64,000 nucleotides of DNA, taken from contig NZ_FOSG01000014.1 in NCBI RefSeq assembly GCF_900114215.1, forward strand, positions 62,001 through 126,000. The letters are read 5' to 3'. The notes beneath the pieces were generated by a model, which saw nothing but the letters and a program-made list of their open reading frames with translations, searched no databases and was not told the origin of the DNA. Positions within the stretch are counted from its first letter, which is position 1. Each line of letters opens with the position of its first letter. Origin of the DNA: Streptomyces mangrovi. GTDB taxonomy: Bacteria > Actinomycetota > Actinomycetes > Streptomycetales > Streptomycetaceae. Shown piece by piece: positions 1-19,734 of the stretch. Position numbers and translations under genes: made by a program.

Positions 1-1046
1 ACGCCGCCGCCATCGCCCGCCTGCTGGTCAGGACCGGTATCGAGCTGGTCGAGGTCGGAATGGTCTCCGGCCCGGACTCGAAGGACGCCGACCTCGTCCT
101 GGCCACCCATGAGGCCGTCGGTCCCGAACGCAGCATGACGCTCGTGGTCGTACGGGACCGCCGGCAGGTCGCCACGGCACTCGACGAGGCCGAGCGACTG
201 GGCGTGCGCCACATCATGTACTCCATCCCCACCTCCGAGCAGCACGCCGGACTCAAGCTGGGCTCGTCCAGCCCCAAGTTCCTCCAGGCACTCGCCCGTT
301 CGGCGATCACGCAGGCCAAGGAGCGCGGCTTCCACGTCACCTTCAGCGGCGAGGACGGCGCCCGCACCCCCAGGGAGCGGCTCGTCCCGTACGTCACCGC
401 GGGCTTCGAGGCCGGGGCCGACCGGTTCCGCCTCGCGGAGACCGTGGCGTACCTCTCGCCCTGGCAGATGGAGCGGGTGGTCTCCGATCTCACCGCGATC
501 GACGGGTCCGAGATCGAGATCCACTCGCACAACATGCTGGGCATGGCCGTCGCCAACTCGCTCGCCGCCGTCCGCGCCGGCGCGCAGTGGATCTCGGTCA
601 CCGTCGGCGGCATCGGTGAGCGCGGCGGCAACGCCCCGCTGGCGGAGCTGCTCACCGCCCTGCACGTCATCCACGGCGACAACCGCTTCGACCTGGGACA
701 TCTGACGGAGCTGTCGCGGATCGCCCTGAGGGGGGCCGGTCTCGGCGACGCCTTCCAGTCCGGGCCGACCACGCCGCACGCCTTCGCCTACGAGTTGCCG
801 GGCCAGCTCACCCACCCGGAGGCGTACGAGACGCTGCCCGCCGAACTCGTCGGCAACCAGCGCGAGCTGCGGGTCCGCAGCCGTCTGACGCCCAGCCTGG
901 TCACCTGGGCGCTGAGCGGGTCCGGAATCCTCGCCGACCCGGACGCCCTCACGTCATGGCTGATCAAGCGGCAGGAACGCGACGGCCGTCCGCTGCTCGA
1001 CCGGGACGCCATCCGCAAGGCCGCCATCGACTTCCAGGCCGTCTGA
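1..1046 (+). CDS. Homocitrate/2-isopropylmalate synthase-like (HMGL/DRE-TIM barrel) enzyme, 5' truncated
   Basis: The open frame begins at base 3 and runs off the left edge, so the real start and the N-terminal catalytic Arg segment are not visible. The visible 347 residues are DRE-TIM metallolyase: GIELVEVG near the start, the metal-binding HSHN motif, and GIGERGGNAPLAEL, as in isopropylmalate and homocitrate synthases. Such enzymes condense acetyl-CoA with a 2-oxo acid. The C-terminus is short and lacks the LeuA-type allosteric domain, which fits a homocitrate-synthase-like role better than leucine synthesis. It lies 115 bp upstream of lysW, so it probably makes the carbon skeleton fed to the carrier-protein pathway. 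Substrate is unknown; citramalate or other condensations are alternatives. Confidence 0.85.
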   Translation, partial: AAAIARLLVRTGIELVEVGMVSGPDSKDADLVLATHEAVGPERSMTLVVVRDRRQVATALDEAERLGVRHIMYSIPTSEQHAGLKLGSSSPKFLQALARSAITQAKERGFHVTFSGEDGARTPRERLVPYVTAGFEAGADRFRLAETVAYLSPWQMERVVSDLTAIDGSEIEIHSHNMLGMAVANSLAAVRAGAQWISVTVGGIGERGGNAPLAELLTALHVIHGDNRFDLGHLTELSRIALRGAGLGDAFQSGPTTPHAFAYELPGQLTHPEAYETLPAELVGNQRELRVRSRLTPSLVTWALSGSGILADPDALTSWLIKRQERDGRPLLDRDAIRKAAIDFQAV

Positions 1047-1161
1047 CCCCGTCCTCCACCGGGTTCCCGGCCTCCTCCGCACCTCCCCGCACCTCCCCGT
1101 ACCCCCCCCGCCCCACCCCGTCCCGCCTCACCCACCCACCTCACCCCACCGGGAGTCGTCC

Positions 1162-1347
1162 ATGTCCACCGCAGCCCTTGCCGGTTCCTGCCCCGAGTGC
1201 GAGACCGATCTGACCGTGCCGCCGATGGTCCACGGCGAGACCCTGTCCTGCCCCGAGTGCATGCTCACCCTCCGTGTCGAGGACGTGCGCGACGGCGTGC
1301 TCACCCTCCAGATGGTCGAGGTGCAGCTGCGCGACTGGGGCCAGTGA
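1162..1347 (+). CDS. lysW: LysW-type amino-group carrier protein with C-terminal Gln
   Basis: This 61-residue acidic protein has two CPEC knuckles (residues 10-13 and 30-33) forming the LysW zinc ribbon, and ends in RDWGQ. Known LysW/AmCP proteins end in EDWGE, where the side-chain carboxyl of the last Glu forms an isopeptide bond with the amino group of aminoadipate or glutamate, protecting it during reduction. Here the last codon is CAG (Gln), followed directly by TGA. Either the amide must first be hydrolysed, another carboxylate is used, or this is a sequence change of one base. The start ATG follows GGGAG. LysX, LysY and LysZ genes follow immediately, so the family call is secure. Confidence 0.93.
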   Translation: MSTAALAGSCPECETDLTVPPMVHGETLSCPECMLTLRVEDVRDGVLTLQMVEVQLRDWGQ

Positions 1348-1373
1348 GCGACGACCCGCGGAGGAGACGATCC

Positions 1374-2225
1374 ATGGGTACCACCATCGCCGTCGTCGCG
1401 GACCGGCTCGGCTGGGAGGAGCGCCGGCTGATCCAGGTCGCGCCCGAGGCCGGCCTGACCGCCGAGTGGGTCAACGACGAATCACTGTGCCTCGGCGACG
1501 CGGACCCCGCGTCGCTGTCCGGGTACGACGCCGTCCTCGTCCGGAGCCGCAGCTACACCCGTGGCGGCCTGGTCGCCACGCTGGCCGAGGCGTCCGGCAT
1601 CCGTACCGTCAACTCCGCCGCGGCCATCCGGGCCTGTGAGAACAAGCTCGAACTGCGCACCGTCCTGCGCCGGGCCGGCGTCCCGGCCGCGCCCTTCCGG
1701 CTCGTGCTGTCCCGCCGGGACTTCCAGCGGGCACTGGAGGACATGCCGCCGCCCGTGGTGCTCAAGCCCGTCTTCGGCGGCATGGGCAAGCGGGTCACCC
1801 TGATCCGGGACGCCGACACGGCCCAGTCCGTCTACGACTACGTCGAGGATCTCGGGCACGGCTTCGAGCAGGCCGCGCTGGTGGAGCCGTACCTGGACAA
1901 AGGCACCTCCGTCCGGTGCTTCGTCGTCGGCCGTGAGCTGGTCGCCACCGCCCGGTTCGCGAGCGCCGGCGGGGACTGGCGCAGCAACGCGGCACTCGGC
2001 AACCAGAGCCGGGCCCTGGACCACGATCCCGCCATCACCGGGATCGTCGACCGTGTGGTGGACGTGCTCGGCGCCGGCGTCTACGGCATCGACCTGTTCG
2101 AGACCCCCGACGGGCACGTCGTCAACGAGGTCAACCACGCCCCCGCGTTCAAGGCGATAGCCGAGGCGACCGGGGCGGACATCCCGCGGGCCCTCGCCCG
2201 CCACCTGCAGGAGGCACTCACGTGA
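1374..2225 (+). CDS. lysX: LysX-family ATP-grasp ligase (LysW conjugating enzyme)
   Basis: This 283-residue RimK/LysX-type ATP-grasp ligase should activate the carrier protein's C-terminal carboxylate and link it to the amino group of an amino acid. Visible signatures are NSAAAIRACENK (substrate/ATP lid region), VVLKPVFGGMGKRV (ATP-binding Lys and Gly loop), WRSNAALG, and a C-terminal NEVNHAPAFK metal/substrate motif typical of LysX (EVN-x-PEFK). The start was chosen at the ATG 9 bases after GGAGGAG; longer frames upstream have no such site and overlap lysW. The stop overlaps the lysY start by 4 bp (GTGA), so the genes are translationally coupled. Which amino acid is loaded cannot be read from the sequence. 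Confidence 0.93.
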   Translation: MGTTIAVVADRLGWEERRLIQVAPEAGLTAEWVNDESLCLGDADPASLSGYDAVLVRSRSYTRGGLVATLAEASGIRTVNSAAAIRACENKLELRTVLRRAGVPAAPFRLVLSRRDFQRALEDMPPPVVLKPVFGGMGKRVTLIRDADTAQSVYDYVEDLGHGFEQAALVEPYLDKGTSVRCFVVGRELVATARFASAGGDWRSNAALGNQSRALDHDPAITGIVDRVVDVLGAGVYGIDLFETPDGHVVNEVNHAPAFKAIAEATGADIPRALARHLQEALT

Positions 2226-3286
2226 TCCGGGTAGGAGTCGTCGGCGCCTCCGGGCTGGCCGGCGGTGAACTCATCAGGCTGATCACCCAACATCCCGACC
2301 TGGAGCTGACCTTCCTCGGCGGCTCCTCCAACATCGGCAGGCGCCCGGCCCAGCTGCACCCGGGCCTCCGCCTCGATCTGGGCCTGACCGTGCAGCCGGT
2401 CACCACGGACATCGCCGACCGGGTCGACGTCGTCCTGCTGGCGACCCCGGCGCCGGTCTCGGCGGAACTGGCCGCGCTGCTCGCGGACCGGGTCCCCGCC
2501 GTGATCGACCTCAGCGGCGCCTTCCGCATCCGCACACCGGAACTGCACGACCGCTGGTACCCCGGGGTGAAGCGGCGCGACGACCTCGTGGACCGCTTCG
2601 TGTACGGCGTGCCGGAACTGGTCGGCGACCAGATGGCGGACGCCGCGCTGATCTCGCTGCCGGGCTGCTACGCCACCTCGATCACCCTGGCTCTCGCCCC
2701 CCTGACCCTCGGGCTGGGCCTGACCCTGAAGACCGTGGTGGTGGACGGCAAGAGCGGCTCCAGCGGCGGCGGCCTGAAGTTGCGCACCGCGGACCTGCAC
2801 CCGCTGCGCAACGGCGCCATCGCACCGTACGCACCCGTGGGTCACCGGCACGCCGCGGAGGTCGGCGACTTCCTGGACCGCGGCAAGCCGGGCGCCGTCG
2901 GACACCTGTCGATGTCCGCCTACGGTGTCTCGCACGTCCGCGGCCTGCTCACCAGCTCCTACGCCTTCACCGACGAGGACATCGACCAGCGCGAGCTCCA
3001 ACGCGCGTACCTGCGCTTCTACAAGGGGCACCGGTTCGTGCGGGTCCGGCGGCACACGGAGACCCTGATCCCGGTGCCCGACCCGCAGGCCGTGCTCGGT
3101 TCCAACTTCTGCGACGTGACGGTCCTGCGGGACGAGGACGACAGGGCCGGCGGCCGGATCGTCGTCCTGGCCGCCCTGGACAACCTCGTCAAGGGCGCCG
3201 CGGGCCAGGCCGTACAGGCCGTGAACAAGCGCTTCGGACTGCCCGAGGAGACGGGTCTGGCGATGCAGCCGGTGATGCCGGCATGA
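2222..3286 (+). CDS. lysY: LysY/ArgC-type acyl-phosphate reductase
   Basis: This 354-residue protein is of the N-acetyl-gamma-glutamyl-phosphate reductase family. An N-terminal Rossmann motif (VGVVGASGLAGGEL) binds NADPH, and SLPGCYATS carries the catalytic Cys that forms the thiohemiacetal. In LysW pathways LysY reduces the carrier-bound acyl phosphate made by LysZ to a semialdehyde. The gene starts with GTG overlapping the lysX stop, and its own stop overlaps lysZ (ATGA). An arginine-pathway ArgC is the only realistic alternative, but the LysW/X/Z context argues strongly for LysY. Confidence 0.93.
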   Translation: MIRVGVVGASGLAGGELIRLITQHPDLELTFLGGSSNIGRRPAQLHPGLRLDLGLTVQPVTTDIADRVDVVLLATPAPVSAELAALLADRVPAVIDLSGAFRIRTPELHDRWYPGVKRRDDLVDRFVYGVPELVGDQMADAALISLPGCYATSITLALAPLTLGLGLTLKTVVVDGKSGSSGGGLKLRTADLHPLRNGAIAPYAPVGHRHAAEVGDFLDRGKPGAVGHLSMSAYGVSHVRGLLTSSYAFTDEDIDQRELQRAYLRFYKGHRFVRVRRHTETLIPVPDPQAVLGSNFCDVTVLRDEDDRAGGRIVVLAALDNLVKGAAGQAVQAVNKRFGLPEETGLAMQPVMPA

Positions 3287-4086
3287 GCGGAACCTCCCGT
3301 GACCGGACCCCCACCGTCGTGAAACTGGGCGGCAGCTGCCTCGACGATCTGGCCGAGTCCTGGTGGGACGACCTGGCCCGGCACGGGCGGGAACACCCGC
3401 TGGTGCTCGTGCACGGCTGGTCCAGACCCCTGAGAGAGCTGAGCCCCCGCTACCGCGACCCCTCGGCGATCCTGCGCGACCGGTACGGCAACCAGAGCAG
3501 ATGGACCACCCCCGAGGTCATCGCGGACATCAAGGCCGTCAGCGCACGGCTGGGCGAGGAGGTCATCGGCCGGCTGGAGCGGCACGGCATCACCGCGGAG
3601 CGGCTCCTGGGCAGCGACGGCCTGGTCCACGCCGGCGAGGGCGAGCGCTGGTGGTGGCGGAACAAGCAGCTGGTCGAACTGGAGAACCTGGTCGGCCCGA
3701 TCACCGCCGTGGACCCCTCACGGCTGAAGAACCTCCAGCCCGGTCACGCCTGCCTGGTGACCCCGCTGGCCCGCGACGCCGGGGGCCGGGAGGTGAACAC
3801 CGACGCCGACCGGGCGGCGGCCGCCCTGGCCGCCGCCACCGGTGCCACCGATCTCGTCCTCGTCACCGACGTCGCCCACCTGCTGATCGACGGCGAGCCG
3901 GTGTCCCGGATCGGCGCCCGGGCCGCGGCCGAGTTCCGCGACAAGGGCGCCACCGGCGGCATGCGCAAGAAGCTGCGCGCGGCCGGCGAGGCCCTCGACG
4001 GCGGAGTGGACCGGGTCGTCATCGGCAGCGCACCGGTCACCGATCTGCTCGCCGGCCGCACCGGAACCGTCATCACCCGTACGTGA
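3283..4086 (+). CDS. lysZ: LysZ-type carrier-bound amino acid kinase
   Basis: This 267-residue amino-acid-kinase-fold protein resembles N-acetylglutamate kinase. It shows the N-terminal VVKLGGSCLDDL phosphate-binding loop, the VNTDADRAAAALAAATGA nucleotide region, LVLVTDVAHLL, and a GGMRKKLRAAGEAL helix carrying the conserved Lys. In LysW systems LysZ phosphorylates the distal carboxyl of the carrier-bound amino acid, giving LysY its substrate. It is the last gene of the tightly overlapping lysX-Y-Z block. The TWW/WWWRNKQ segment (around residues 119-126) is basic and aromatic, plausible for docking the acidic carrier, but that is inference. Confidence 0.92.
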   Translation: MSGTSRDRTPTVVKLGGSCLDDLAESWWDDLARHGREHPLVLVHGWSRPLRELSPRYRDPSAILRDRYGNQSRWTTPEVIADIKAVSARLGEEVIGRLERHGITAERLLGSDGLVHAGEGERWWWRNKQLVELENLVGPITAVDPSRLKNLQPGHACLVTPLARDAGGREVNTDADRAAAALAAATGATDLVLVTDVAHLLIDGEPVSRIGARAAAEFRDKGATGGMRKKLRAAGEALDGGVDRVVIGSAPVTDLLAGRTGTVITRT

Positions 4087-4098
4087 GGAGTCCCGCGC

Positions 4099-4662
4099 AT
4101 GGCGCAATCCCGTGTACTCGTCGTCAACAACGGCACGTTGTCCCTGAAACAGCTCCGCGCACGCTTCGAGAAGCTGGGGTCGCGGACCGACGCGGTGGAC
4201 GTGGCGTCCGTACCCGCCACCCTCGGGGGCCGCTACCAGGCCATCGTGCTGAGCGGCACCAAGGTGCGGGCCTGTGACACCGCGTTCTACCGGCCGCTCG
4301 TCGACCTCGTCATGGGGTCCGGCGTCCCGGTCCTCGGCATCTGCGGCGGTATGCAGCTCATGGCCGTGGCGGCGGGCGGCCGGCTGGCGGAGGGCCCGCA
4401 GCGGGTCGGCGGCTACGACGCCCAGGTCGACAAGGAAGAGCCGCTGTTCACCTACGTCAAACCCACCGTGACCGTCTTCCACCGCCACACCCTGTACCTG
4501 CGGGAGGCCCCCGAGGGCTTCCGGTCCATCGGCCGCTCCGGGCACGCGCCCGTGGAGTTCCTGCGCTCCGACGACGGGAGGATCTTCGGCTCCCAGGCGC
4601 ATCTGGAGTTCCGCAGCGACGGCCTGGAGATCCTGCGCGGCTTCGCCCAGCTCTACCGGTGA
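4099..4662 (+). CDS. Stand-alone class I glutamine amidotransferase-like protein
   Basis: This 187-residue GATase1-fold protein starts 12 bp after lysZ. The nucleophile elbow GICGGMQLM places the Cys at 82; His168 and Glu170 (QAHLE) complete the triad, so it should be active as a glutaminase. It has no synthase domain and no recognisable partner (GuaA, HisF, CarB) in the window. Its position inside the LysW operon makes two roles plausible: supplying ammonia to another cluster enzyme, or hydrolysing a protein- or peptide-linked glutamine such as the terminal Gln of the LysW protein. Both are inferences; only the fold and triad are visible. Confidence 0.85.
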   Translation: MAQSRVLVVNNGTLSLKQLRARFEKLGSRTDAVDVASVPATLGGRYQAIVLSGTKVRACDTAFYRPLVDLVMGSGVPVLGICGGMQLMAVAAGGRLAEGPQRVGGYDAQVDKEEPLFTYVKPTVTVFHRHTLYLREAPEGFRSIGRSGHAPVEFLRSDDGRIFGSQAHLEFRSDGLEILRGFAQLYR

Positions 4663-4741
4663 CCGCCGCCGGCCGCGGACGCGATCCGGCGCCCCCCCGT
4701 ACTCGTCCACGCACCTCACCTACACAACGAAGGACTTGGCA

Positions 4742-5860
4742 ATGAGCGTTGTGGAAAACCCGCAGGAGCCGGCGTTCACCGTGCGCCTGAACGGCAGCGG
4801 CGGCGTTCTGAAGGGCTGGGTCGTCGTCGACACGCTCGTCGACGGCCTGGCGATGGGCGGCACCCGTATGACCGCCGGGGTCACCGAGGAGGAGGTCGCC
4901 GGCCTCGCACGGGACATGACCGAGAAGTTCACGCTCGCCGGGCTGCGCATCGGCGGCGCCAAGGCCGGCATCGTCTCCGACGGCAGCGACCGCGAGGAGA
5001 CCTTCCGCACCTTCGGCCGTACCGTCAAGCCCCTGCTGCACGGCGGCATCCACCTCGGCATCGACATGGGCGTCACCCCCGCGGACCGGGCCGTCTTCTT
5101 CGCCGAGGCCGGTTACGACCCGCGCTACCGGCTGGGCGCCCCGGACATGCCGATCGACTGGCGCACGTACTACGAGCCGCTGATCGACGCCACCGGGCAC
5201 GGCGTCGGGGTCGCCGCGCTCACCGCCCTGGAGGCGGGCGGCCGCACGACGTCGGCGCGTGTCGTGGTCCAGGGCTTCGGCGCCGTGGGCCGCTCGGTCG
5301 CCCGGTTCCTGGAGGAGCGCGGGCACGTGGTCGTGGGCGTCGCCGACGTGCACGGCACCATCAGCGCGGACCGGCTGCCGGTCGCCGACCTGGTCGCCGT
5401 CACCGACGAGTTCGGGCGGATCGACCGCTCCCGCCTGCCGCAGCACGTCACCGTGTCCGCCGAGCCGGACGCCTGGCTCGGACTCGACGCCGACGTGCTG
5501 GTCCTCGCGGCGCAGAAGCACGCGCTCAACGCCGAGAACGCCCACCGCCTGCGCGCCCGCCTGGTGGTGGAGGGCGCCAACCTCGCCTCGAGTGCCGAGG
5601 CCAAGGAGAAGGTCCGGGCCACGGGTGCCACCCTGGTCCCGGGCGTGATCGCCAACATCGGCGGGGCCGCGTCGGCCGCCCTGGCCGTCACCCGGGTCGT
5701 CCCGTTCGACCTGGCGGCCGACGCGCGCAAGGAGTGGGTCTTCGGCTGGGTCGCCGACCGGGTGCGCCACAACACCCGGGCCCTGCTGGAGATCGCCGCC
5801 TCCCGGGCGGGCGACCCGCTGCCCGAACTGCTCGCGGCCCGGCGCGGGGACCTGCGATGA
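4742..5860 (+). CDS. Glu/Leu/Phe/Val dehydrogenase-family oxidoreductase
   Basis: This 372-residue protein has the two-domain layout of NAD(P)-dependent amino acid dehydrogenases. The N-terminal domain has GGTRM and GGAKAGI (catalytic Lys), and the Rossmann domain has VQGFGAVGRSVA. The GGAKAG motif departs slightly from the usual GGAKGG. Members interconvert 2-oxo acids and L-amino acids with ammonia. In this cluster it may aminate a 2-oxo acid intermediate, or oxidise an amino acid to feed the synthase. ATG at 4742 was chosen because AAGGA lies 8 bases upstream; a TTG two codons earlier is an alternative. The stop overlaps the ligase start (ATGA). Confidence 0.9.
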   Translation: MSVVENPQEPAFTVRLNGSGGVLKGWVVVDTLVDGLAMGGTRMTAGVTEEEVAGLARDMTEKFTLAGLRIGGAKAGIVSDGSDREETFRTFGRTVKPLLHGGIHLGIDMGVTPADRAVFFAEAGYDPRYRLGAPDMPIDWRTYYEPLIDATGHGVGVAALTALEAGGRTTSARVVVQGFGAVGRSVARFLEERGHVVVGVADVHGTISADRLPVADLVAVTDEFGRIDRSRLPQHVTVSAEPDAWLGLDADVLVLAAQKHALNAENAHRLRARLVVEGANLASSAEAKEKVRATGATLVPGVIANIGGAASAALAVTRVVPFDLAADARKEWVFGWVADRVRHNTRALLEIAASRAGDPLPELLAARRGDLR

Positions 5861-7512
5861 CGCCCACGACCACGGCCGTCCTGGCCACGGCCTCGGCGGC
5901 GGACCGCATGGCCGAGTACCGGCGGCGCGGATGGTGGCGGGACGCCACGTTCCTCGACGACCTGCGCCGTCAGGCCCTGGCACGGCCGCGCAAGCTGGCC
6001 ATCGCCGGACGCCGGCTCGACGAGGCCCGCACCGACACGCTCGACTACACCGAACTGTCCCGGCTGACCGACCGGTTCGCCGGAGCACTGCTCGAACTGG
6101 GCGTCCGGCGCGGCGACATCGTCGCCGTCCAACTGCCCAACCGGTGGGAGATGGTGCCGCTGATGTTCGCCTGCATGGCGGTCGGCGCGGTCATCTGCCC
6201 CATCGCGCCCGTCTGCCGGGAGGAGGAGCTGCGCCACCGCCTCACGCTCACCGAGGCCAGGGTGTGCGTCACCCTGCCGGAGTGGGAGGGCTACCCGCTC
6301 GCCGAGGCCATCAACGCGCTGCGGCCCGAGCTGCCGCTGGAGCACCTGGTGGTCGTCGACGGGCACGCCCCGCGGGGAGCGGTCGACTTCCACGACCACT
6401 TCGTCTCCACACACTGGGAGAAGCAGCACATGGGCGACCTGGAAGGCCGCGCGCTGCGGCCCGACGAGCCGTTCGTGGTGCTGTTCACCTCGGGCACGAC
6501 CGGTTTCTCCAAGGGCGTGGTGCACAGCCAGAACACCGTGCACTCGGGCGTGCGCGGCTACGTGGACACGTTCATGCTCCGCGACGACATGGTGGCCGTG
6601 GTCACCACGCCGCTGGTGCACTACTCCGGCTTCGGCCAGGGGGTGCTCGCCGGGGTGATGCTCGGCGGGACGATCGTCTTCCAGGACGGCCACGACCACG
6701 CCGGCCTGCTGGACCTGGTCGAGAGGTACCGCGGCACCCTGCTGTACGGACCGCCGCCCACGCTCTCCGGTGTGGCGGCCGCCCAGCAGACCGACCCGCA
6801 CGACGTGTCCAGCCTGCGTCACACGGTCACCGGAGCGGCGCCGGTGCTCCAGGAGCTGGTGGACGAGCTGCGGGACACCTTCGGGGCCCGTACGTACTCG
6901 GTGTGGGGCATGTCCGAGTTCGGTCCGGTCACCATCAGCCGGCTCGACTACAACCAGGACTGGGCCGCGCACAGCCACGGGCGGCCGATCGACTCCATGG
7001 AGATCCGCATCGACCTGTGCCACGACCCCGACAAGCGGGCCCCGGTGGGCCGGCTGCGGGTGCGCGGGGCCTCACAGGCCCTCGGCTACCACAAGCAACA
7101 GGACGCCTTCGACGCCGAGACGACCGCGGACGGCTGGTTCGACACCGGCGACGTGGCGCGCGAGGACGGCCGCGGCGGCATCCGCATCCTGGGCCGGGCG
7201 AGGGACACCATCCTGCGTGACGGGATCGTCGTCCCGATGGCGGAGCTGGAGGCGATCATCTCGCGGCACCCGAAGGTGACCGAGGCGGCGCTGGTCGGTC
7301 CCACCGGCAAGGTGGACGACCCGATCCTGGCGGTCGCCGTGCCCTGCGGCGGCGCCCGGCCCACGCTCCAGGAGGTCCGGGAGCACCTGCGGGACCACGG
7401 ACAGGACCCCCGGTTCCTCCCCGAGCGGCTGGAGGTCGTCGAGGCGCTGCCCAAGACCCTGACGGGCAAGGTCCGCAAGGTGGAGCTGAGACGGCGCTAC
7501 GCCGCCCGGTGA
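5857..7512 (+). CDS. Class I adenylate-forming ligase (acyl-CoA/aryl-AMP ligase family)
   Basis: This 551-residue ANL-superfamily enzyme activates a carboxylic acid as its adenylate. Visible motifs are the P-loop TSGTTGFSKGVV (A3), WGMSEFG (A5), GWFDTGDVAR (A7), GRARDTILRDG (A8 hinge) and the C-terminal catalytic Lys in KTLTGKVRK (A10). Its length matches cyclohexanecarboxylate-CoA or dihydroxybenzoate-AMP ligases. No free carrier domain (ACP/PCP) or condensation domain is encoded in the window, so transfer is probably to CoA, an amine, or a carrier encoded to the left. It is translationally coupled to the dehydrogenase. Confidence 0.9.
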   Translation: MTPTTTAVLATASAADRMAEYRRRGWWRDATFLDDLRRQALARPRKLAIAGRRLDEARTDTLDYTELSRLTDRFAGALLELGVRRGDIVAVQLPNRWEMVPLMFACMAVGAVICPIAPVCREEELRHRLTLTEARVCVTLPEWEGYPLAEAINALRPELPLEHLVVVDGHAPRGAVDFHDHFVSTHWEKQHMGDLEGRALRPDEPFVVLFTSGTTGFSKGVVHSQNTVHSGVRGYVDTFMLRDDMVAVVTTPLVHYSGFGQGVLAGVMLGGTIVFQDGHDHAGLLDLVERYRGTLLYGPPPTLSGVAAAQQTDPHDVSSLRHTVTGAAPVLQELVDELRDTFGARTYSVWGMSEFGPVTISRLDYNQDWAAHSHGRPIDSMEIRIDLCHDPDKRAPVGRLRVRGASQALGYHKQQDAFDAETTADGWFDTGDVAREDGRGGIRILGRARDTILRDGIVVPMAELEAIISRHPKVTEAALVGPTGKVDDPILAVAVPCGGARPTLQEVREHLRDHGQDPRFLPERLEVVEALPKTLTGKVRKVELRRRYAAR

Positions 7513-7664
7513 CCGGGCCGGCGGACGGCGTCCCCCGCCCGTCCGCCGGCTCCGCCCGGCCGCCCCGAAGCCTCCCGCCCGTCCTTCGCCGCTCCTCCCC
7601 GTCTTCCCCGCCCGCCCTTCGCAGCCCGGCCGGCCCCACCGCCGAACCGTCTGGAGGAAACACC

Positions 7665-8933
7665 ATGCTCGAAGCCCCATCGGTGACCGTGTCGGCGACA
7701 CTGGCCGCCGACGAGGCGCTGGCCCGCCGGCGCGATGCCGGGGAACGGGTCCTGTCCCTGGCGAGTGGGGAGATCGGCCTGCCGGTCCTCCCCGCGCTGC
7801 GGGAACGGCTCGCCGCGGCGGCGGGCCGCAACGCCTACGGCCCGGTCGCCGGCAGTGCGGCGCTGCGCACCGCCGCCGCCGGGTACTGGGCGCGGCGGGG
7901 TCTGGAGACCGACCCCGGGCTGGTGGTGTGCGGGCCCGGCAGCAAGCCGCTGCTGTTCGCGCTGCTGCTGGCGATCGGCGGCGACGTGGTGGTGCCCGTG
8001 CCGAGCTGGGTCAGCTACGCGGCGCAGGCGCGACTGGCCGGGGCCCGGCCGGTTCCGGTGCCCGTCCTGCCGGGCCAGGGCGGTGTGCCCGATCCGGCGG
8101 CGCTGCGCGAGGCGGTGGCCCGTGCCCGCGCCGCCGGGCGCGACACGCGCTGTGTGGTGGTCACCCTGCCCGACAACCCGACCGGCACCATCGCGGCACC
8201 CGCCACCGTGCGGCGCCTCGCGGAGGCGGCCCGTGAGCTGGACCTGGTCGTCATCTCCGACGAGATCTACCACGACCTGGTCTTCGACCCGGCGGACCGG
8301 CCGCCCTCCCCGGCCGTCTTCGCGCCCGAGCGTACGGTGGTCACCACCGGCCTGGCCAAGAACCTGGCGCTCGGCGGCTGGCGGGCAGGGGTCGCCCGGC
8401 TCCCGGAAGGCCCGCTCGGCCGCGGGACGCACGACCGGCTGGTCGCCGTCGCCAGCCAGATCTGGTCGAGTGCCGCCGCCCCCGTGCAGGCCGCCGCGGC
8501 CTACGCCTTCGAGGAGCCGCCCGAGGTGGTCGAGCACCTCGCCGCCGGCCGGCGGCTGCACGAGACGGTGGCGCGCGCCGTGGCCGAACGATTCACCGCC
8601 GTCGGCGCCGAACTGCCGCCCGTACGCGCGACCTGCTACCTGTACCCCGACTTCGAGCCGCTGCGCGAACACCTCGGCCGGGCACACGGGGTGCACGACA
8701 GCGGTGGACTCACCACCCTGCTCGCCGAGCGGTACGGCGTGGGACTGCTGCCGGGCGCCGCCTTCGGCGAGCCCGGGCGGTACCTGCGCGTCCGTGCCGC
8801 CACCGGCCGGCTCTACGGCGAGACGGAGGCCGAGCGCACCGGCGCCCTGTCCGCCGCGGACCCACTCCGGCTCCCGTGGATCCGGGATTCCCTGAACCGC
8901 TTCGACGAGGTCCTGGGCGCCCTGGCGCGCTGA
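7665..8933 (+). CDS. Class I/II PLP-dependent aminotransferase
   Basis: This 422-residue fold-type I aminotransferase resembles aspartate aminotransferase. It shows the DNPTG motif (VVVTLPDNPTG), ISDEIYHDLVF with the PLP-pyridine Asp/Tyr, the Schiff-base Lys in TTGLAKNLALGGWRAG, and a C-terminal YLRVRAA Arg region. The start is the ATG behind GGAGGAAACACC; the frame extends upstream through C-rich spacer without another good site. LysW-lysine pathways use a class III enzyme (LysJ) for the terminal amination, so a class I/II enzyme here implies a different acceptor or a step on another part of the molecule. A 152-bp pyrimidine-rich spacer separates it from the ligase. Confidence 0.92.
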   Translation: MLEAPSVTVSATLAADEALARRRDAGERVLSLASGEIGLPVLPALRERLAAAAGRNAYGPVAGSAALRTAAAGYWARRGLETDPGLVVCGPGSKPLLFALLLAIGGDVVVPVPSWVSYAAQARLAGARPVPVPVLPGQGGVPDPAALREAVARARAAGRDTRCVVVTLPDNPTGTIAAPATVRRLAEAARELDLVVISDEIYHDLVFDPADRPPSPAVFAPERTVVTTGLAKNLALGGWRAGVARLPEGPLGRGTHDRLVAVASQIWSSAAAPVQAAAAYAFEEPPEVVEHLAAGRRLHETVARAVAERFTAVGAELPPVRATCYLYPDFEPLREHLGRAHGVHDSGGLTTLLAERYGVGLLPGAAFGEPGRYLRVRAATGRLYGETEAERTGALSAADPLRLPWIRDSLNRFDEVLGALAR

Positions 8934-9002
8934 CGGACACCCCCGCACCGAGACACTCCCGCACCGCCCCCGCCCCGACTCACCAGGAGGTTCCTCCCAG
9001 CC

Positions 9003-9902
9003 ATGTCCATCATCTTCGAATGCGAGTACCAGGGCCGGCGGTACGCGGGTCTGGGCATACCGGTTCCCGGCGAACCCCACACCCTCCACCGGGTGGCCGA
9101 CGGCCGGCTGGCCGCCGCCCTCGTCGCGGGCGGCGGGCCCGAGGCCCTGAGCGCCGCCGTGGCGCGGGGAACCGAGACGGTCGAGGTGACCCTCGGCGAC
9201 CCGGAACTGCGCTTCCTGCCTCCGCTGCTGCCCACCGCCCCCGACAGCGGCCTGATCAACGGCTTCATGGGCACGCACCGCTCCAAGTTCGACCGCGCCC
9301 CGGAGCCCGACGAGGAGTTCACCCCGCCCAACTACTACATCAAGGGCTTCGGCTCGTGGCTGCGCATGCCGGACGAGCCGCTGACCACCCCCGCCGATCC
9401 GGTCTGGCTGCTGGAGGAGCCGGAGGTGGCCCTGGTGTACGTCAACGACGACCGGGGCGTCCCGCACTACGCGGGCTACACCTTCGGCAACGACCTCAAC
9501 GACATCGGTCTGCACCTGAAGAACCCGTGGGCCTGGACCCCGTACGCGAAGCTGTGCGAGACCTCCCTGACGCCCTGGCTGTTCCTGGGGCCGCCGCCGC
9601 GGACCGCGACCGGCCGGGTCGTCATCGAACGGGACGGCCGGCCCGCGTGGGAGGGCCCCTTCTCGTGCGGCACCGACTCCCTGTTCCACCGCGTGGAGGA
9701 CATGACCGGACATCTGTTCTCGTATCCGGCGCTGCGCCGGCCGGGCCTGGTCAACTACCTGCTGCTCGGCGCGGACAAGGCCACCTACCACGACGGGTTC
9801 CGGATCGAGGACGGCGACCGGATGGTCATCGACGTGACCAGCCACGGCGTCGTGCTGGCGAACCCGGTCCAGTACGGTCAGGCGGAGACGGCCAGGTCGT
9901 AG
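9003..9902 (+). CDS. Fumarylacetoacetate hydrolase (FAH)-fold protein, AraD1/GguC-like
   Basis: This 299-residue protein follows AGGAGG. The pattern NYYIKGFGSWLRMPDEPL, then WLLEEPEVALVYV (acidic metal ligands), AGYTFGNDLNDIGLHLKN and YAKLCETSLTPWLFLG matches the FAH superfamily, particularly the AraD1/GguC branch, which acts on 2-keto-3-deoxy acids. Family members hydrate, dehydrate, decarboxylate or hydrolyse C-C bonds in 2-oxo acids with a divalent metal. In this cluster it could process an oxo acid or a late intermediate. The call rests on motif recognition, so subfamily and reaction are uncertain. Its 3' end overlaps the convergent MerR gene by 25 bp. Confidence 0.7.
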   Translation: MSIIFECEYQGRRYAGLGIPVPGEPHTLHRVADGRLAAALVAGGGPEALSAAVARGTETVEVTLGDPELRFLPPLLPTAPDSGLINGFMGTHRSKFDRAPEPDEEFTPPNYYIKGFGSWLRMPDEPLTTPADPVWLLEEPEVALVYVNDDRGVPHYAGYTFGNDLNDIGLHLKNPWAWTPYAKLCETSLTPWLFLGPPPRTATGRVVIERDGRPAWEGPFSCGTDSLFHRVEDMTGHLFSYPALRRPGLVNYLLLGADKATYHDGFRIEDGDRMVIDVTSHGVVLANPVQYGQAETARS

Positions 9903-10306
9903 TCCGCTGCCGCCGGCCGCTCGGGCCCGCCGGCTCCGGCGGGCCGCCGGGCCCCGCGCACGGCCTCAAGGTAGTCGGAGATGGCGTCCCTGCTGCGGAT
10001 CAGGCACTCGATCCGCTGGGTCATCCGCTCGCGCTCGCGCTCCAGCGTGGTGATCGTCTCCAGGGTCGCCCCGGCGACATGGATGGACCGGGGCTGCTTC
10101 AGGCACGGCAGGATCTGCTTGATGACACGGGTCGGCAGCCCGGAGTCGAGCAGCCCCCTGATCTGCAGTACCCGGTCCACACTGCGCTCGCAGTACTCCC
10201 GGTATCCGTTCGGCGAACGGTCCGGTACCAGCAGGCCCTGTTCCTCGTAGTAGCGCAGCATCCGGCGCGGCGTCCCCGTCCGCTCGGCCAGTTCCCCGAT
10301 CCGCAT
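9878..10306 (-). CDS. MerR-family transcriptional regulator
   Basis: This 142-residue regulator has the N-terminal winged helix MRIGELAERTGTPRRMLRYYEEQGLL typical of MerR, followed by a dimerisation helix (ITTLERERERMTQRIECLI) and a short Ala/Pro-rich tail with no sensor domain. The start chosen is the ATG at 10306, where the MerR consensus begins; an upstream in-frame extension has no family similarity. It diverges from the MFS gene, and the 65-bp shared gap holds an inverted repeat. It is probably the switch for efflux, possibly sensing the cluster's product. Its 3' end overlaps the FAH-fold gene, which is convergent. Confidence 0.93.
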   Translation of the reverse strand: MRIGELAERTGTPRRMLRYYEEQGLLVPDRSPNGYREYCERSVDRVLQIRGLLDSGLPTRVIKQILPCLKQPRSIHVAGATLETITTLERERERMTQRIECLIRSRDAISDYLEAVRGARRPAGAGGPERPAAADYDLAVSA

Positions 10307-10331
10307 GTGACCCACCTCACACAAAATCGAC

Positions 10332-10352
10332 TTGACCTTCACACAGATGTGA
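10332..10352 (+). promoter_or_regulatory. Putative MerR operator and promoter of the MFS gene
   Basis: A -35-like TTGACC (10332-10337) is followed directly by the inverted repeat TCACA-N4-TGTGA (10339-10352). MerR regulators bind dyads in the over-long spacer between -35 and -10, so this position fits activation of the MFS gene at 10372. No convincing -10 element could be placed. Confidence 0.55.
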
Positions 10353-10371
10353 TGGTTGGAGGATAACAGGC

Positions 10372-11589
10372 ATGTCAACGTCCGAAACAGACCTGCTGAC
10401 CGGCGAACCACCGGCCCCGAAGCAGCAGAAGCTGCCTCTGTCACCGCTGCTGGCCCTGTGCACGGCGGCGTTCATGGGAATCCTCACCGAGGCCCTGCCC
10501 GCCGGCGTGCTGCCGGAGATGGCCCGCGATCTCTCCGTGAGCGAGTCCGCGGCGGGGCAGACGCTGACGATCTACGCGATCGCCACGGGCCTCTCGGCGA
10601 TCCCGATGTCCGTGGCGACGGCCACCTGGCGCCGCAAGAGGCTGCTGCTGCTCGCCGTCACGACCTTCGCCGTCGCCAACGTCGTCACCGCCCTCTCCTC
10701 CAGCTACGCCCTGACGATGGTCTTCCGCCTCGCCGCCGGTGTGGCCGCGGCCGTCGTGTGGGCCGAACTCGTCGGTTACGCCCGCCGTCTGGCCCCGCCG
10801 CATCTGCAGGGCCGGGCGATCGCCATCACCATGGCCGGCATCCCGCTCGCGCTCTCCCTGGGCATCCCCCTGGGCACCTTCCTGGGCGAGCTGTTCGGCT
10901 GGCGGCTGACCTTCGGTCTGGTGACCGTGGTGTCCGTACTCCTGCTCGGATGGGTCTCCGTGTCGGTTCCCGACTACCCCGGTCAGCAGGCCGGGAAGCG
11001 GGCACCGATCCTGCAGGCGCTCAAACTGCCCGGTGTGGCGGCGGTGCTGTTCGTGGTCGCCGCCTACGTCCTGGCGCACAACATCCTCTACACCTACATC
11101 GCCACGTTCCTCGACGAGTACGACATGACCGCCTCCCGCGACGTCGTCCTGCTGGTCTTCGGGATCGCCTCCATGGTGAGCATCTTCATCACCGGCGCCC
11201 TGGTCGACCGCCGGCTGCGGGCCCTGACCATCGGCAGCACCGTTCTGTTCCTGGTGGCCGCCGGCATGCTGGCGGTGCTGGCCGACAACACGGCCGCGGT
11301 CTACCTGGCGATGGTGCTGTGGGGCCTCGGCTGGGGCGGTGTGGCCACACTTCTGCAGACCGCCGTCACCGACGCGGGCGGCGACCGGGGGCAGGCCCTG
11401 CTGGTCACCACGTGGAACTCCTTCATGGCCGGCGGCGGTGCGGTCGGCGGCATCCTGCTCGACGGCCTCGGCCCCACCTCCTTCCCGTGGAGCGTCCTGC
11501 TGCTGCTGGCCCCCGTGCTGCTCGTCGTGGTCGGCGCCCGCGCGCACGGCTTCCCCGCCAAGCGGCCGAGCATGATGACGACGGACTGA
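10372..11589 (+). CDS. MFS transporter, DHA1 (AraJ/YdhP-like) drug exporter
   Basis: This 405-residue protein has about twelve hydrophobic segments. The loop between helices 2 and 3 is basic (TWRRKRLL), and helix 4 carries a RLAAGVAAAVVWAEL-type motif B. Proteins of this kind expel drugs, arabinose or amino-acid-like metabolites by proton antiport. The ATG follows GGAGG. Placement beside a MerR gene at the end of the LysW cluster suggests product export or self-protection. A perfect 13-bp hairpin ends the unit 26 bp downstream. Confidence 0.92.
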   Translation: MSTSETDLLTGEPPAPKQQKLPLSPLLALCTAAFMGILTEALPAGVLPEMARDLSVSESAAGQTLTIYAIATGLSAIPMSVATATWRRKRLLLLAVTTFAVANVVTALSSSYALTMVFRLAAGVAAAVVWAELVGYARRLAPPHLQGRAIAITMAGIPLALSLGIPLGTFLGELFGWRLTFGLVTVVSVLLLGWVSVSVPDYPGQQAGKRAPILQALKLPGVAAVLFVVAAYVLAHNILYTYIATFLDEYDMTASRDVVLLVFGIASMVSIFITGALVDRRLRALTIGSTVLFLVAAGMLAVLADNTAAVYLAMVLWGLGWGGVATLLQTAVTDAGGDRGQALLVTTWNSFMAGGGAVGGILLDGLGPTSFPWSVLLLLAPVLLVVVGARAHGFPAKRPSMMTTD

Positions 11590-17085: not shown

Positions 17086-19214
17086 ACGCGGCTTCGGCCA
17101 CCCGCCGTATGGCGGTACGGCTGGCGTGGGGGGCTCACCGCGAGCAGCGGCTGCGACTGGTGCTGCTCACCGCGGTCGCCGTGATCACCACGGTGGTCTC
17201 CCTGTTCGCCACCGCGGTGGTGTATTCCCTGATGGAGGAACGGGAACGGTTCGACGCACGTGCGGTGCGGCTGGCGGACGAGGGGACCCGCCCTCTGGTG
17301 CGAGTCAACCTCCGGACGGATACCTGGGAACGGGAACAGTTCCCCGTCGTTTGGCTGGACCCGCTGGACGACCGCGACCCGCGCGCGCTTCCACCCGGTA
17401 TGAAGGAGTGGCCCCGGCCCGGCGGCTGGTACGTGTCCCCCGGGCTGGCCTCACTGGCCGCCGGGGAGCCGCGGCTGGCCGAGCGCTTCCCCGGCGCCTC
17501 CGTGCTCGCCGACGAGGGAGTCCTGCACCCTGGTGAGCTCCTGGCCTACCGGCTCATGCCCAGCGGCGGGGAGATGGGCGCGGACATCCTCGAGGCCACC
17601 GGATTCGGTGGGGCACGCGAAGGACGCGGCATGCCCATCGGCGACGATACGGAGATCGACGTCCCGGCCATGGCACTCGCCGTCGGCGGCTTCGTCGGCG
17701 TTCCTCTGCTGTTGCTCGCCATGACCGGGACGGCCGTGTCGGCACCGCTGCGGGCACAGCGCATGGCCCTGCTGGGTGCCATCGGGCTGCCTGGGCGCTG
17801 GCGCAGGCGGCTGCTGGGTTACGAGTCTCTGCTGACGACGGGTCCGGGGGTGGTGGCCGGAGCCGCTCTGTGGTGTGCCGTCGGCCCGCTGCCGGACGCT
17901 CTCCCCTTGGTCGGTCGTCCCATAGCCGCCGGCGCGCTGGTACCGCCGTACTGGCTTGTCCTGTCGGTCTCCGCCGCTGTTCTCGTGCTGTTCGCCGGCC
18001 TTTCCCTGGTTACAGACCAGATCCGCCGTACCCGGCGCGACCGGCAGTCGCCGCGGCCGCGTGCCGGACGGCCGGCGCTGCGCGCGCTCCGGCTTGCTCC
18101 GGCCGCCGCGGGAGCCGGTCTGCTGGTGGCGGCTTCGCTGCGGGAAGGACACGCCGCGGCGGTCAGCGCCCTGTCCGGCACCGTTCTGCTGGCCGCCGGA
18201 GTGCCTCTCGCCCTGCCTGTCGTCGCCCGGCTGCTGGCGGCCCGGCTGGCCGACACATCGGCCGATCCGGTGAGGATGATGGCCGGACGCAGGCTTCAGT
18301 ACGATCCGCGGTCCGCCGTCAAACCGCTGTACGGGATCGCCGCACTGCTCGTGGTCGTGCCGGTGGTCGCGGCCTGGATGGCCAGCGCCCGCCAGGCCGA
18401 CCCGCCGGCGCCGCGGGATGAGCGGGTGGAGTCCGTCGTCCTCCGGGGTGCACTCGACCGGCTCGACATAGAGAAGTTCACAGGCCGGGTGCCCGGCACT
18501 GTGGCCGCCCGGATTCACATCGTCGAATCGGCCACCGCCAATGCCGAGCCCTCGGCCCGGCTGTCCGCAGCCTGTTCGGACCTCGGCTCCGTACTCGGTG
18601 GCGAAGCGTGTTCACGTCCCGGGACGCTGCGCCCCGCCGCTGCGGAGCGTCTGCGGCGCATCGCCGGCCTGCCGATGCCCCTCGACCCGAAGCTGCGTCC
18701 GCCGCCGCTGCGGGAGGAACTCACCAAGACCGACTCATTGCTGGTGTTGGGAGCGCGGAGCCCTGCCTTCGAACTCGAACTGCGTACCGCCGCTCTGCGG
18801 CAACCCGTCGCACTGACTGTGCTCTCCGAGGATGATCTGGCGACTCGGGAATCGAAACTCGTCGCCTGGATCTTCGGCGGACTGGCCGTACTGGTCTCAC
18901 TGGTGTTCTGCACGCTCGCGATCGGAGTCGTCGACCGGAGCGCCGCCGGCCGGCGTGACGCACGGTTGCTGATCGCGATCGGACTGACCAGGAACCGGGT
19001 GCGGGAGATCGCCGGGCGTGAATTCCTGCTGGGATACGGAGCCGTGGTGGGATCGGGACTCACCGTGGGAGTCATCGCGGCCGCCGTCTGGAACTCCCTC
19101 GACCCCGCGGTTCCCTACCCGGCCGGTGTGACGCTGGTGACCGCCGCGGTGGCCACCGCTCTCGGTGCGATCGGTCTGCTCGGCGTGCGCGGTTACGGGA
19201 CCGCCCGCCCCTGA
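17082..19214 (+). CDS. FtsX-like ABC permease, 710 aa
   Basis: The protein has a hydrophobic N-terminal helix (residues ~20-45), an extracytoplasmic domain (~45-190), a central block of helices (~190-310), a second block (~330-430), another extracytoplasmic stretch (~430-590) and a final three-helix FtsX-type block (~590-700, with ERRD-like RSAAGRRDARLLIAIGLTRNRVREI). This duplicated FtsX layout matches permeases of antimicrobial-peptide resistance or bacteriocin-associated ABC systems. It is translationally coupled to the ATPase and lies downstream of the secreted Cys-rich protein, so export, immunity or sensing of that protein is the simplest reading. Substrate unknown. Confidence 0.85.
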   Translation: MNAASATRRMAVRLAWGAHREQRLRLVLLTAVAVITTVVSLFATAVVYSLMEERERFDARAVRLADEGTRPLVRVNLRTDTWEREQFPVVWLDPLDDRDPRALPPGMKEWPRPGGWYVSPGLASLAAGEPRLAERFPGASVLADEGVLHPGELLAYRLMPSGGEMGADILEATGFGGAREGRGMPIGDDTEIDVPAMALAVGGFVGVPLLLLAMTGTAVSAPLRAQRMALLGAIGLPGRWRRRLLGYESLLTTGPGVVAGAALWCAVGPLPDALPLVGRPIAAGALVPPYWLVLSVSAAVLVLFAGLSLVTDQIRRTRRDRQSPRPRAGRPALRALRLAPAAAGAGLLVAASLREGHAAAVSALSGTVLLAAGVPLALPVVARLLAARLADTSADPVRMMAGRRLQYDPRSAVKPLYGIAALLVVVPVVAAWMASARQADPPAPRDERVESVVLRGALDRLDIEKFTGRVPGTVAARIHIVESATANAEPSARLSAACSDLGSVLGGEACSRPGTLRPAAAERLRRIAGLPMPLDPKLRPPPLREELTKTDSLLVLGARSPAFELELRTAALRQPVALTVLSEDDLATRESKLVAWIFGGLAVLVSLVFCTLAIGVVDRSAAGRRDARLLIAIGLTRNRVREIAGREFLLGYGAVVGSGLTVGVIAAAVWNSLDPAVPYPAGVTLVTAAVATALGAIGLLGVRGYGTARP

Positions 19215-19443
19215 GCCCCCGTTCTTCCACCAGTCGGCGGCCGCCGGGAGGAACTCCCGGAAGAGCACGGGCCGGAGGGGAGCGCGACGGTCGCGGACCA
19301 CCACACCGGTGGTGTGGGCGGGGCGCGGGGAACGCGGCACCGCCGCCCGGGCGAGCACGGCACGGCGATCCACCCGTGCCCCCGGAGGCCCAGCCCCGTC
19401 CTCCATGCCCCACCACCGCTGCGGTGCTGGGCCGGAGCGGGGC

Positions 19444-19734
19444 TCAGATGTTCTTGGGGTCGAACGGGTCGTGCTCGGTGATCAGCTTGTCCAGCCGGGC
19501 CTTGTCCACGCGGGTGGTCACCTCCTGCATCTCCTGCCGGTCCCGCACGCACTTGGCCAGCGTGAAGGTGGAGGAGATCAGGAAGAGGACGCCGACCGCC
19601 AGGAAGCCGCGCTCCCACGGCCCCATCGGCATGTAGGCGACACCGAGGCCCACGGCGAGCAGCGAGAGCGCGAAGGAGGCGGCGGCCTGCACGAAGAACG
19701 CGGCGGTGGTGGGCCGCTGGACTGGTGTGGTCAT
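19444..19734 (-). CDS. YiaA/YiaB-like small membrane protein
   Basis: This 96-residue protein has two membrane helices (AAFFVQAAASFALSLLAVGLG and GFLAVGVLFLISSTFTLAK) and a charged C-terminal tail (VDKARLDKLITEHDPFDP). It matches the YiaA/YiaB inner-membrane family common in Streptomyces, of unknown function. The start chosen is MTTPVQRP at 19734; a 12-codon upstream extension is less likely. The 229 bp between it and the convergent permease gene contain only a weak CCGGGAG/CTCCCGG hairpin (19244-19260). Confidence 0.8.
   Translation of the reverse strand: MTTPVQRPTTAAFFVQAAASFALSLLAVGLGVAYMPMGPWERGFLAVGVLFLISSTFTLAKCVRDRQEMQEVTTRVDKARLDKLITEHDPFDPKNI

Follow-up and report, generated by a model that had tools for sequence, protein, structure and literature searches.

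BGC23a of Streptomyces sp. QL37 contains an isopropylmalate synthase (IPMS)-like gene (QL37_30710), lysW (30715), rimK (30720) and an AMP ligase gene, and deletion of lysW-rimK abolishes iso-maleimycin (PMC12022981, 2025). A gamma-butyrolactone subcluster adjoins it, and S. showdoensis ATCC 15227 has a putative maleimycin cluster reported to be homologous to it in both sequence and gene arrangement (PMC12022981). This layout, an IPMS-like gene beside lysW and rimK together with an AMP ligase gene, is also found in a compact, operon-like cluster at positions 1-11589 of the stretch of Streptomyces mangrovi DNA analysed here (64,000 nt, hereafter the window; contig C15 of a 6.3-Mb genome). The window starts inside the first gene of the cluster, which encodes a homocitrate synthase (HCS)/IPMS-like enzyme. 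The cluster probably belongs to the maleimycin/iso-maleimycin-type class, a divergent amino-group-carrier class, in a subtype that bears acyl-CoA dehydrogenases (ACADs), and the product is likely a maleimycin-type cyclopentene-fused imide instead of a free aminated amino acid. The original prediction for this DNA had called the cluster uncharacterised, which is not borne out, since the gene set is of the kind behind iso-maleimycin. It had also singled out the ligase as a distinguishing feature, but the ligase, the IPMS-like gene and the LysW/RimK pair are hallmarks of BGC23a (PMC12022981). The reduced, aminated amino acid that it proposed as the product probably survives as an intermediate only, the expected end product being a bicyclic imide.

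The gene families named in that prediction were all confirmed, in order, with the correction that the start of the HCS-like gene lies outside the window, 109 bases to its left (L004:19892, L004 being the left flank). This gene (1..1046 in the window, forward strand like all that follow unless stated) encodes a 384-aa DRE-TIM metallolyase (PF00682, 1.4e-42). Next come a 61-aa LysW-type amino-group carrier with a CPEC...CPEC zinc ribbon (1162..1347; PF21344, 6e-5; NF041070, 3.3e-10, below cut-off), a LysX/ArgX-like ATP-grasp ligase of the RimK/LysX type (1374..2225; TIGR02144, 3.4e-51; PDB 3vpd, 1e-35), a LysY/ArgC-like reductase with the catalytic motif PGCY (2222..3286; TIGR01850, 4e-95), a LysZ/ArgB-like AA-kinase (3283..4086; TIGR00761, 1e-31; [LysW]-aminoadipate kinase, 1e-30) and a stand-alone class-I glutamine amidotransferase (GATase; 4099..4662; PF00117, 4.7e-18) with GICGGMQ and HLEF motifs, whose nearest PDB entry is GMP synthase. 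The remainder of the cassette consists of a Glu/Leu/Phe/Val dehydrogenase family enzyme (4742..5860; PF00208, 3.5e-31), an AMP-forming acyl-CoA/adenylate ligase (5857..7512; PF00501, 2.9e-69; TIGR03208, 3e-107, below cut-off), a class I/II pyridoxal phosphate aminotransferase (7665..8933; PF00155, 2.1e-45; nearest NCBIfam model the GntC cyclodehydratase, below cut-off) and an AraD1/FAH-fold protein of the GguC type (9003..9902; NF040903 (GguC), 6.9e-33, below cut-off). A Pfam search with the FAH protein gave no match; the best Foldseek match of its AlphaFold model (pLDDT 91) is an FAH-fold 2-keto-3-deoxy-arabinonate dehydratase (2q19, E 2.2e-15). As predicted, the reading frames overlap or nearly adjoin: LysX/LysY/LysZ and dehydrogenase/ligase share 4-base overlaps, and most of the other cassette genes are closely spaced.

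The cassette is flanked on the right by a MerR regulator on the reverse strand (9878..10306; PF13411, 1.2e-18), syntenic in the ACAD-bearing subtype, and an MFS transporter (10372..11589; PF07690, 2.1e-43). On the left, across a divergent gap from the HCS-like gene, two ACAD genes lie on the reverse strand (L004:17055-18284 and 18432-19598), followed farther out by a TetR regulator, an AfsA-type butyrolactone gene and a short-chain dehydrogenase/reductase (SDR). The nearby AfsA gene parallels the gamma-butyrolactone subcluster at BGC23a. AfsA and TetR were rejected as part of the core cluster, AfsA-like matches being found in only a few of the 74 related loci described below.

Five strains have been described as possessing both a BGC23a-like cluster and an angucycline cluster: QL37, MBT70, SM11, S. 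filamentosus and S. shenzhenensis (PMC12022981). The complete cassette was detected in Streptomyces sp. SM11 (L076), S. filamentosus (L119) and S. shenzhenensis (L117), which are all three of the publicly available named carriers. The scan query was the HCS-like family of the window, chosen without regard to these species. In the genome that contains the window, two TcmI-type polyketide cyclases (G000:C53:246380 and G000:C25:4423) point to type II polyketide synthase loci, one of which might be an angucycline cluster of the sort that pairs with iso-maleimycin for lugdunomycin. A PsuG-type gene is expected in the showdomycin producer S. showdoensis; a search of the window genome for such a gene found none.

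The HCS-like query had matches in 25/393 Streptomyces genomes. A scan of named genomes with the HCS alignment uncovered 74 loci, mostly in Streptomyces but also in Kitasatospora, Streptacidiphilus, Kribbella, Nocardiopsis, Actinoplanes, Saccharothrix, Nocardia, Rhodococcus, Brevibacterium and others. The six-gene core HCS-LysW-X-Y-Z-GATase is complete in 70 of these 74 actinobacterial loci and collinear in 70/70. All ten genes are present in 56 named loci, and 51 of these keep them in the order HCS-like–LysW–LysX–LysY–LysZ–GATase–dehydrogenase–ligase–aminotransferase–FAH. The cassette is therefore not a chance grouping. The FAH query matched in 23 of 296 genus genomes; in 13 other genomes the cassette surrounds the match (including one rearrangement and one contig cut), and in 7 further genomes examined the FAH relative stands alone in an unrelated gene set. 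FAH alone was rejected as a cluster marker, as the FAH relatives in L042-L048 sit in another gene set. In those loci, FAH relatives (42-48%) belong to a conserved group of genes for a GH3-family protein, an enolase-like enzyme, an alpha/beta hydrolase, an SDR and an aminotransferase, possibly another specialised pathway.

Several loci retain the core without the rest. L098, L100, L114 and L122 contain the six-gene core and lack the ligase, dehydrogenase and FAH genes; so does L112, where just a distant aminotransferase is found; and L121, a contig-cut relative (HCS-LysWXYZ), lacks the GATase. The neighbours in core-only loci include HxlR, luciferase-like monooxygenase, radical SAM, aminotransferase and ATP-grasp genes. 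This pattern of a conserved core beside other neighbours suggests that the core makes an intermediate and that the tail is exchangeable, with the GATase travelling with the core. The core-only relatives probably turn this intermediate into other products.

A syntenic ACAD pair is present in 15 named loci. Mapped on the ligase tree, the presence of the pair requires 5 changes compared with 12.1 for shuffled labels (0/500 as low), which suggests that the pair travels with the cluster and was gained or lost several times. The nearest ligase relatives of the window copy are in the ACAD-bearing loci L063 and L087. It is conceivable, if somewhat unlikely, that clusters of the ACAD-bearing subtype share the early intermediate but take it to another end product, distinct from maleimycin: an amino acid or imide that is oxidised further or cyclised in another way. 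The synteny and clustering of the ACAD pair would fit this alternative, as would the core-only loci, in which the core feeds other tails, but the ten cassette genes, including those for the ligase, aminotransferase and FAH protein, are retained and mostly collinear in both subtypes. L159 and L164 are canonical amino-group carrier protein (AmCP) loci of the EDWGE type with a ligase 38-40% like that of the window and an adjoining ACAD pair; they belong to another type of cluster whose tail is similar.

The cluster was largely lost from a conspecific genome. In G392 (contig C5, L170:15930-16000) a 15.0-kb deletion, corresponding to window positions -5936 to 9051, removed everything from AfsA through the aminotransferase along with the first 16 codons of FAH, leaving MerR and MFS in place. 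The cluster is therefore accessory. The homologies of the carrier and of the LysX, LysY and LysZ proteins would fit primary lysine or arginine synthesis via LysW. This reading has next to no probability, with the HCS gene found in just 25 of 393 congeners and missing from G392, and with ArgJ present elsewhere in the genome, on another contig; together with the deletion, the latter rules it out. The left flank (ACADs, TetR, AfsA, SDR) likewise contains no such pathway: neither aconitase nor an isocitrate-type dehydrogenase nor a LysK set was found there, and the original assignment to a specialised LysW/AmCP-type cluster stands. Close to the deletion in G392, a 13.3-kb Tn3-family transposon (L170:2178-15438) with the terminal inverted repeats ACGGCCTCGGGGAACAATGGAAC interrupts the SDR gene. 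The transposon encodes a 1055-aa transposase, a resolvase, MerB and disulfide oxidoreductases, a content of the mercury-resistance type.

Canonical carriers have an EDWGE tail, and the gamma-carboxyl of its terminal Glu holds the amino acid; LysX reads this tail via a GSWGR motif, and the E54A mutant of ArgW is inactive, resulting in arginine auxotrophy (PMC10433800). The LysW of the window ends in RDWGQ, the C-terminal attachment Glu being replaced by Gln, and among 72 relatives the last residue is Gln in 69 and Glu in 3. All 30 of the other Streptomyces carriers that were read out end in EDWGE or close kin with a final WGE. The window LysX has KPVFGGMGK in place of GSWGR. All 72 LysX relatives have GG[ML]G[KR] as the tail-reading motif, and the motif is GSWGR in every case where it was found beside an EDWGE carrier. 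On the LysX tree, one branch with 99% support separates the cluster ligases from the canonical ones, and the Q/E difference in the carrier tail needs 3 changes within the family. The single branch between the two sets suggests that the tail and motif shifted in one evolutionary event and not by repeated covariation. No second LysW-like carrier was found in the window genome at the threshold used. A carrier that lacks the attachment residue, paired with a ligase that lacks the reading motif, is a testable departure from textbook carrier chemistry.

The same branch bears on whether the cluster is a DADH pathway of the vazabitide/azinomycin type. LysW, LysX, LysZ, LysY and an aminotransferase are common to DADH clusters and the window, but that branch separates the window LysX from the canonical ligases, homologues of the HCS-like enzyme and GATase were undetected in 14 canonical Streptomyces AmCP neighbourhoods, and a domain scan of the cluster genes found none of the transketolase needed for two-carbon transfer on the DADH route. 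Such a pathway is very improbable here. The domain scan found no M20 peptidase among the cluster genes either.

The GATase is encoded in every core locus that is not cut by a contig end, even where the ligase, dehydrogenase and FAH genes are missing (L098, L100, L114), which suggests that it belongs with the carrier module. It may be a gamma-glutamyl hydrolase serving carrier maturation and release, or it may supply ammonia for the imide. That core-only clusters have it favours the former role, and its similarity to the glutaminase subunits of GMP synthase favours the latter, although a role solely as the ammonia partner of the ligase is weakened because the GATase is kept where the ligase is missing. 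The loci of the Glu-ended carriers (L105, L115, L122) still have a GATase, which argues against deamidation of Gln as its sole task. A tentative reading, held at rather less than even odds, is that the class uses new carrier chemistry, in which the amino acid is not loaded on the side chain of an encoded C-terminal Glu. The GATase would deamidate the terminal Gln and later release the product by gamma-glutamyl thioester chemistry of the same kind, or else LysX would load the Gln at its alpha-carboxyl; in addition, an HCS-like enzyme with a newly acquired function would perform an aldol addition on the protein-bound aldehyde.

In the HCS-like enzyme the metal-site residues D19, H211, H213 and N247 are invariant. 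His27 takes the place of the Gln of RDGEQ, in the context TLRDSAH (once TLRDTAH) across all 74 relatives, and PDB alignments place a four-residue gap at the AGxH/SGIH catalytic segment of condensing enzymes. A His at the RDGEQ Gln position also occurs in pyruvate aldolases. Structures matched by the AlphaFold model of the enzyme (pLDDT 85, weak at 290-297) include 4-hydroxy-2-oxovalerate aldolases as well as those of HCS and IPMS. The substitution and this structural match suggest that the enzyme may be aldolase-like, acting on a carrier-bound aldehyde. A condensing enzyme without condensing residues is a second testable departure. The loss of the His segment also speaks against a beta-lactone pathway, in which the IPMS/HCS-like enzyme would give a beta-hydroxy acid, the AMP ligase would close a beta-lactone as in belactosin and cystargolide, and LysW would just supply a building block. 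BGC23a carries a beta-lactone-like antiSMASH label derived from its IPMS and AMP ligase (PMC12022981), and the intermediate proposed below is a beta-hydroxy acid. The QL37 cluster is nevertheless required for iso-maleimycin, which is not a beta-lactone, and the cassette has no gene for a peptide-bond-forming partner except LysX, so that this alternative is improbable.

A route to the maleimycin-type imide can be proposed, its individual enzymatic steps being proposals that are each more doubtful than the class assignment and less than evenly likely. LysX would load glutamate onto LysW, and LysZ and then LysY would convert the side-chain carboxyl to the aldehyde by phosphorylation and reduction. 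The HCS-like enzyme would add a two-carbon unit, giving carrier-bound 2-amino-5-hydroxypimelate, and the GATase would free the product, mature the Gln-ended carrier, or both. The dehydrogenase and aminotransferase would turn the 2-amine into a 2-ketone and the AMP ligase would activate the carboxyl at the other end. The ring would then be closed by a C6-to-C2 aldol reaction, and dehydration, perhaps by the AraD1-like protein, would yield 3-hydroxycyclopentene-1,2-dicarboxylate, whose imide would be closed by ammonia to give C7H7NO3. The two ACADs would further oxidise a CoA-bound intermediate, MerR would act in control and MFS in export. In bacillimide, a thiol adduct of the same skeleton, the hydroxyl is next to the ring junction (PMC8878140). 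This agrees with the position where the proposed C5-OH would end, and the carbon count also fits the route. Iso-maleimycin is a constitutional isomer and would need a moved hydroxyl, for which the scheme does not account.

Some points weigh against placing the cluster in the maleimycin class with this product. No ACADs were found within 10 kb of the SM11, S. filamentosus and S. shenzhenensis loci, and their absence from these three linked species means that the end product in S. mangrovi may differ. With the His segment of its acetyl-CoA condensing relatives missing from the HCS-like enzyme, two-carbon addition from acetyl-CoA is putative, and the scheme does not explain the need for both an aminotransferase and a dehydrogenase. 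The QL37 and S. showdoensis clusters, neither of which is among the named loci recovered by the scan, were likened to the window through their published description. No enzymatic step of a maleimycin-type pathway was found tested in the open-licence literature searched.

With this assignment, a cluster that looked unknown joins a pathway class established only recently. The class now spans many actinobacterial genera and has a defined core of HCS-like enzyme, LysW, LysX, LysY, LysZ and GATase, along with variable tails. Maleimycin-type imides include the dienophile of lugdunomycin, and resolving the two departures would yield a stepwise route to them.

Among known systems, the LysW lysine and arginine pathways of Thermus and archaea share homologues of the carrier, ligase, kinase and reductase, but the window carrier lacks the C-terminal Glu, no LysK-type pathway lies downstream, and the cluster is accessory and variable between strains. 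The AmCP-type clusters for vazabitide A, azinomycin and ficellomycin share the LysW, LysX, LysZ and LysY logic on glutamate (for azinomycin an AmCP or an N-acetyl route; PMC9570651). In contrast to these, the window has an HCS-like enzyme and a GATase in place of a transketolase, RDWGQ and not EDWGE, and GGMGK and not GSWGR. QL37 BGC23a shares the IPMS/HCS-like gene, LysW and RimK/LysX with consecutive locus tags, the AMP ligase and a nearby gamma-butyrolactone gene; the window copy differs from this type in its two divergent ACADs on the left, missing from L076, L119 and L117, and in the MerR and MFS genes on its right.

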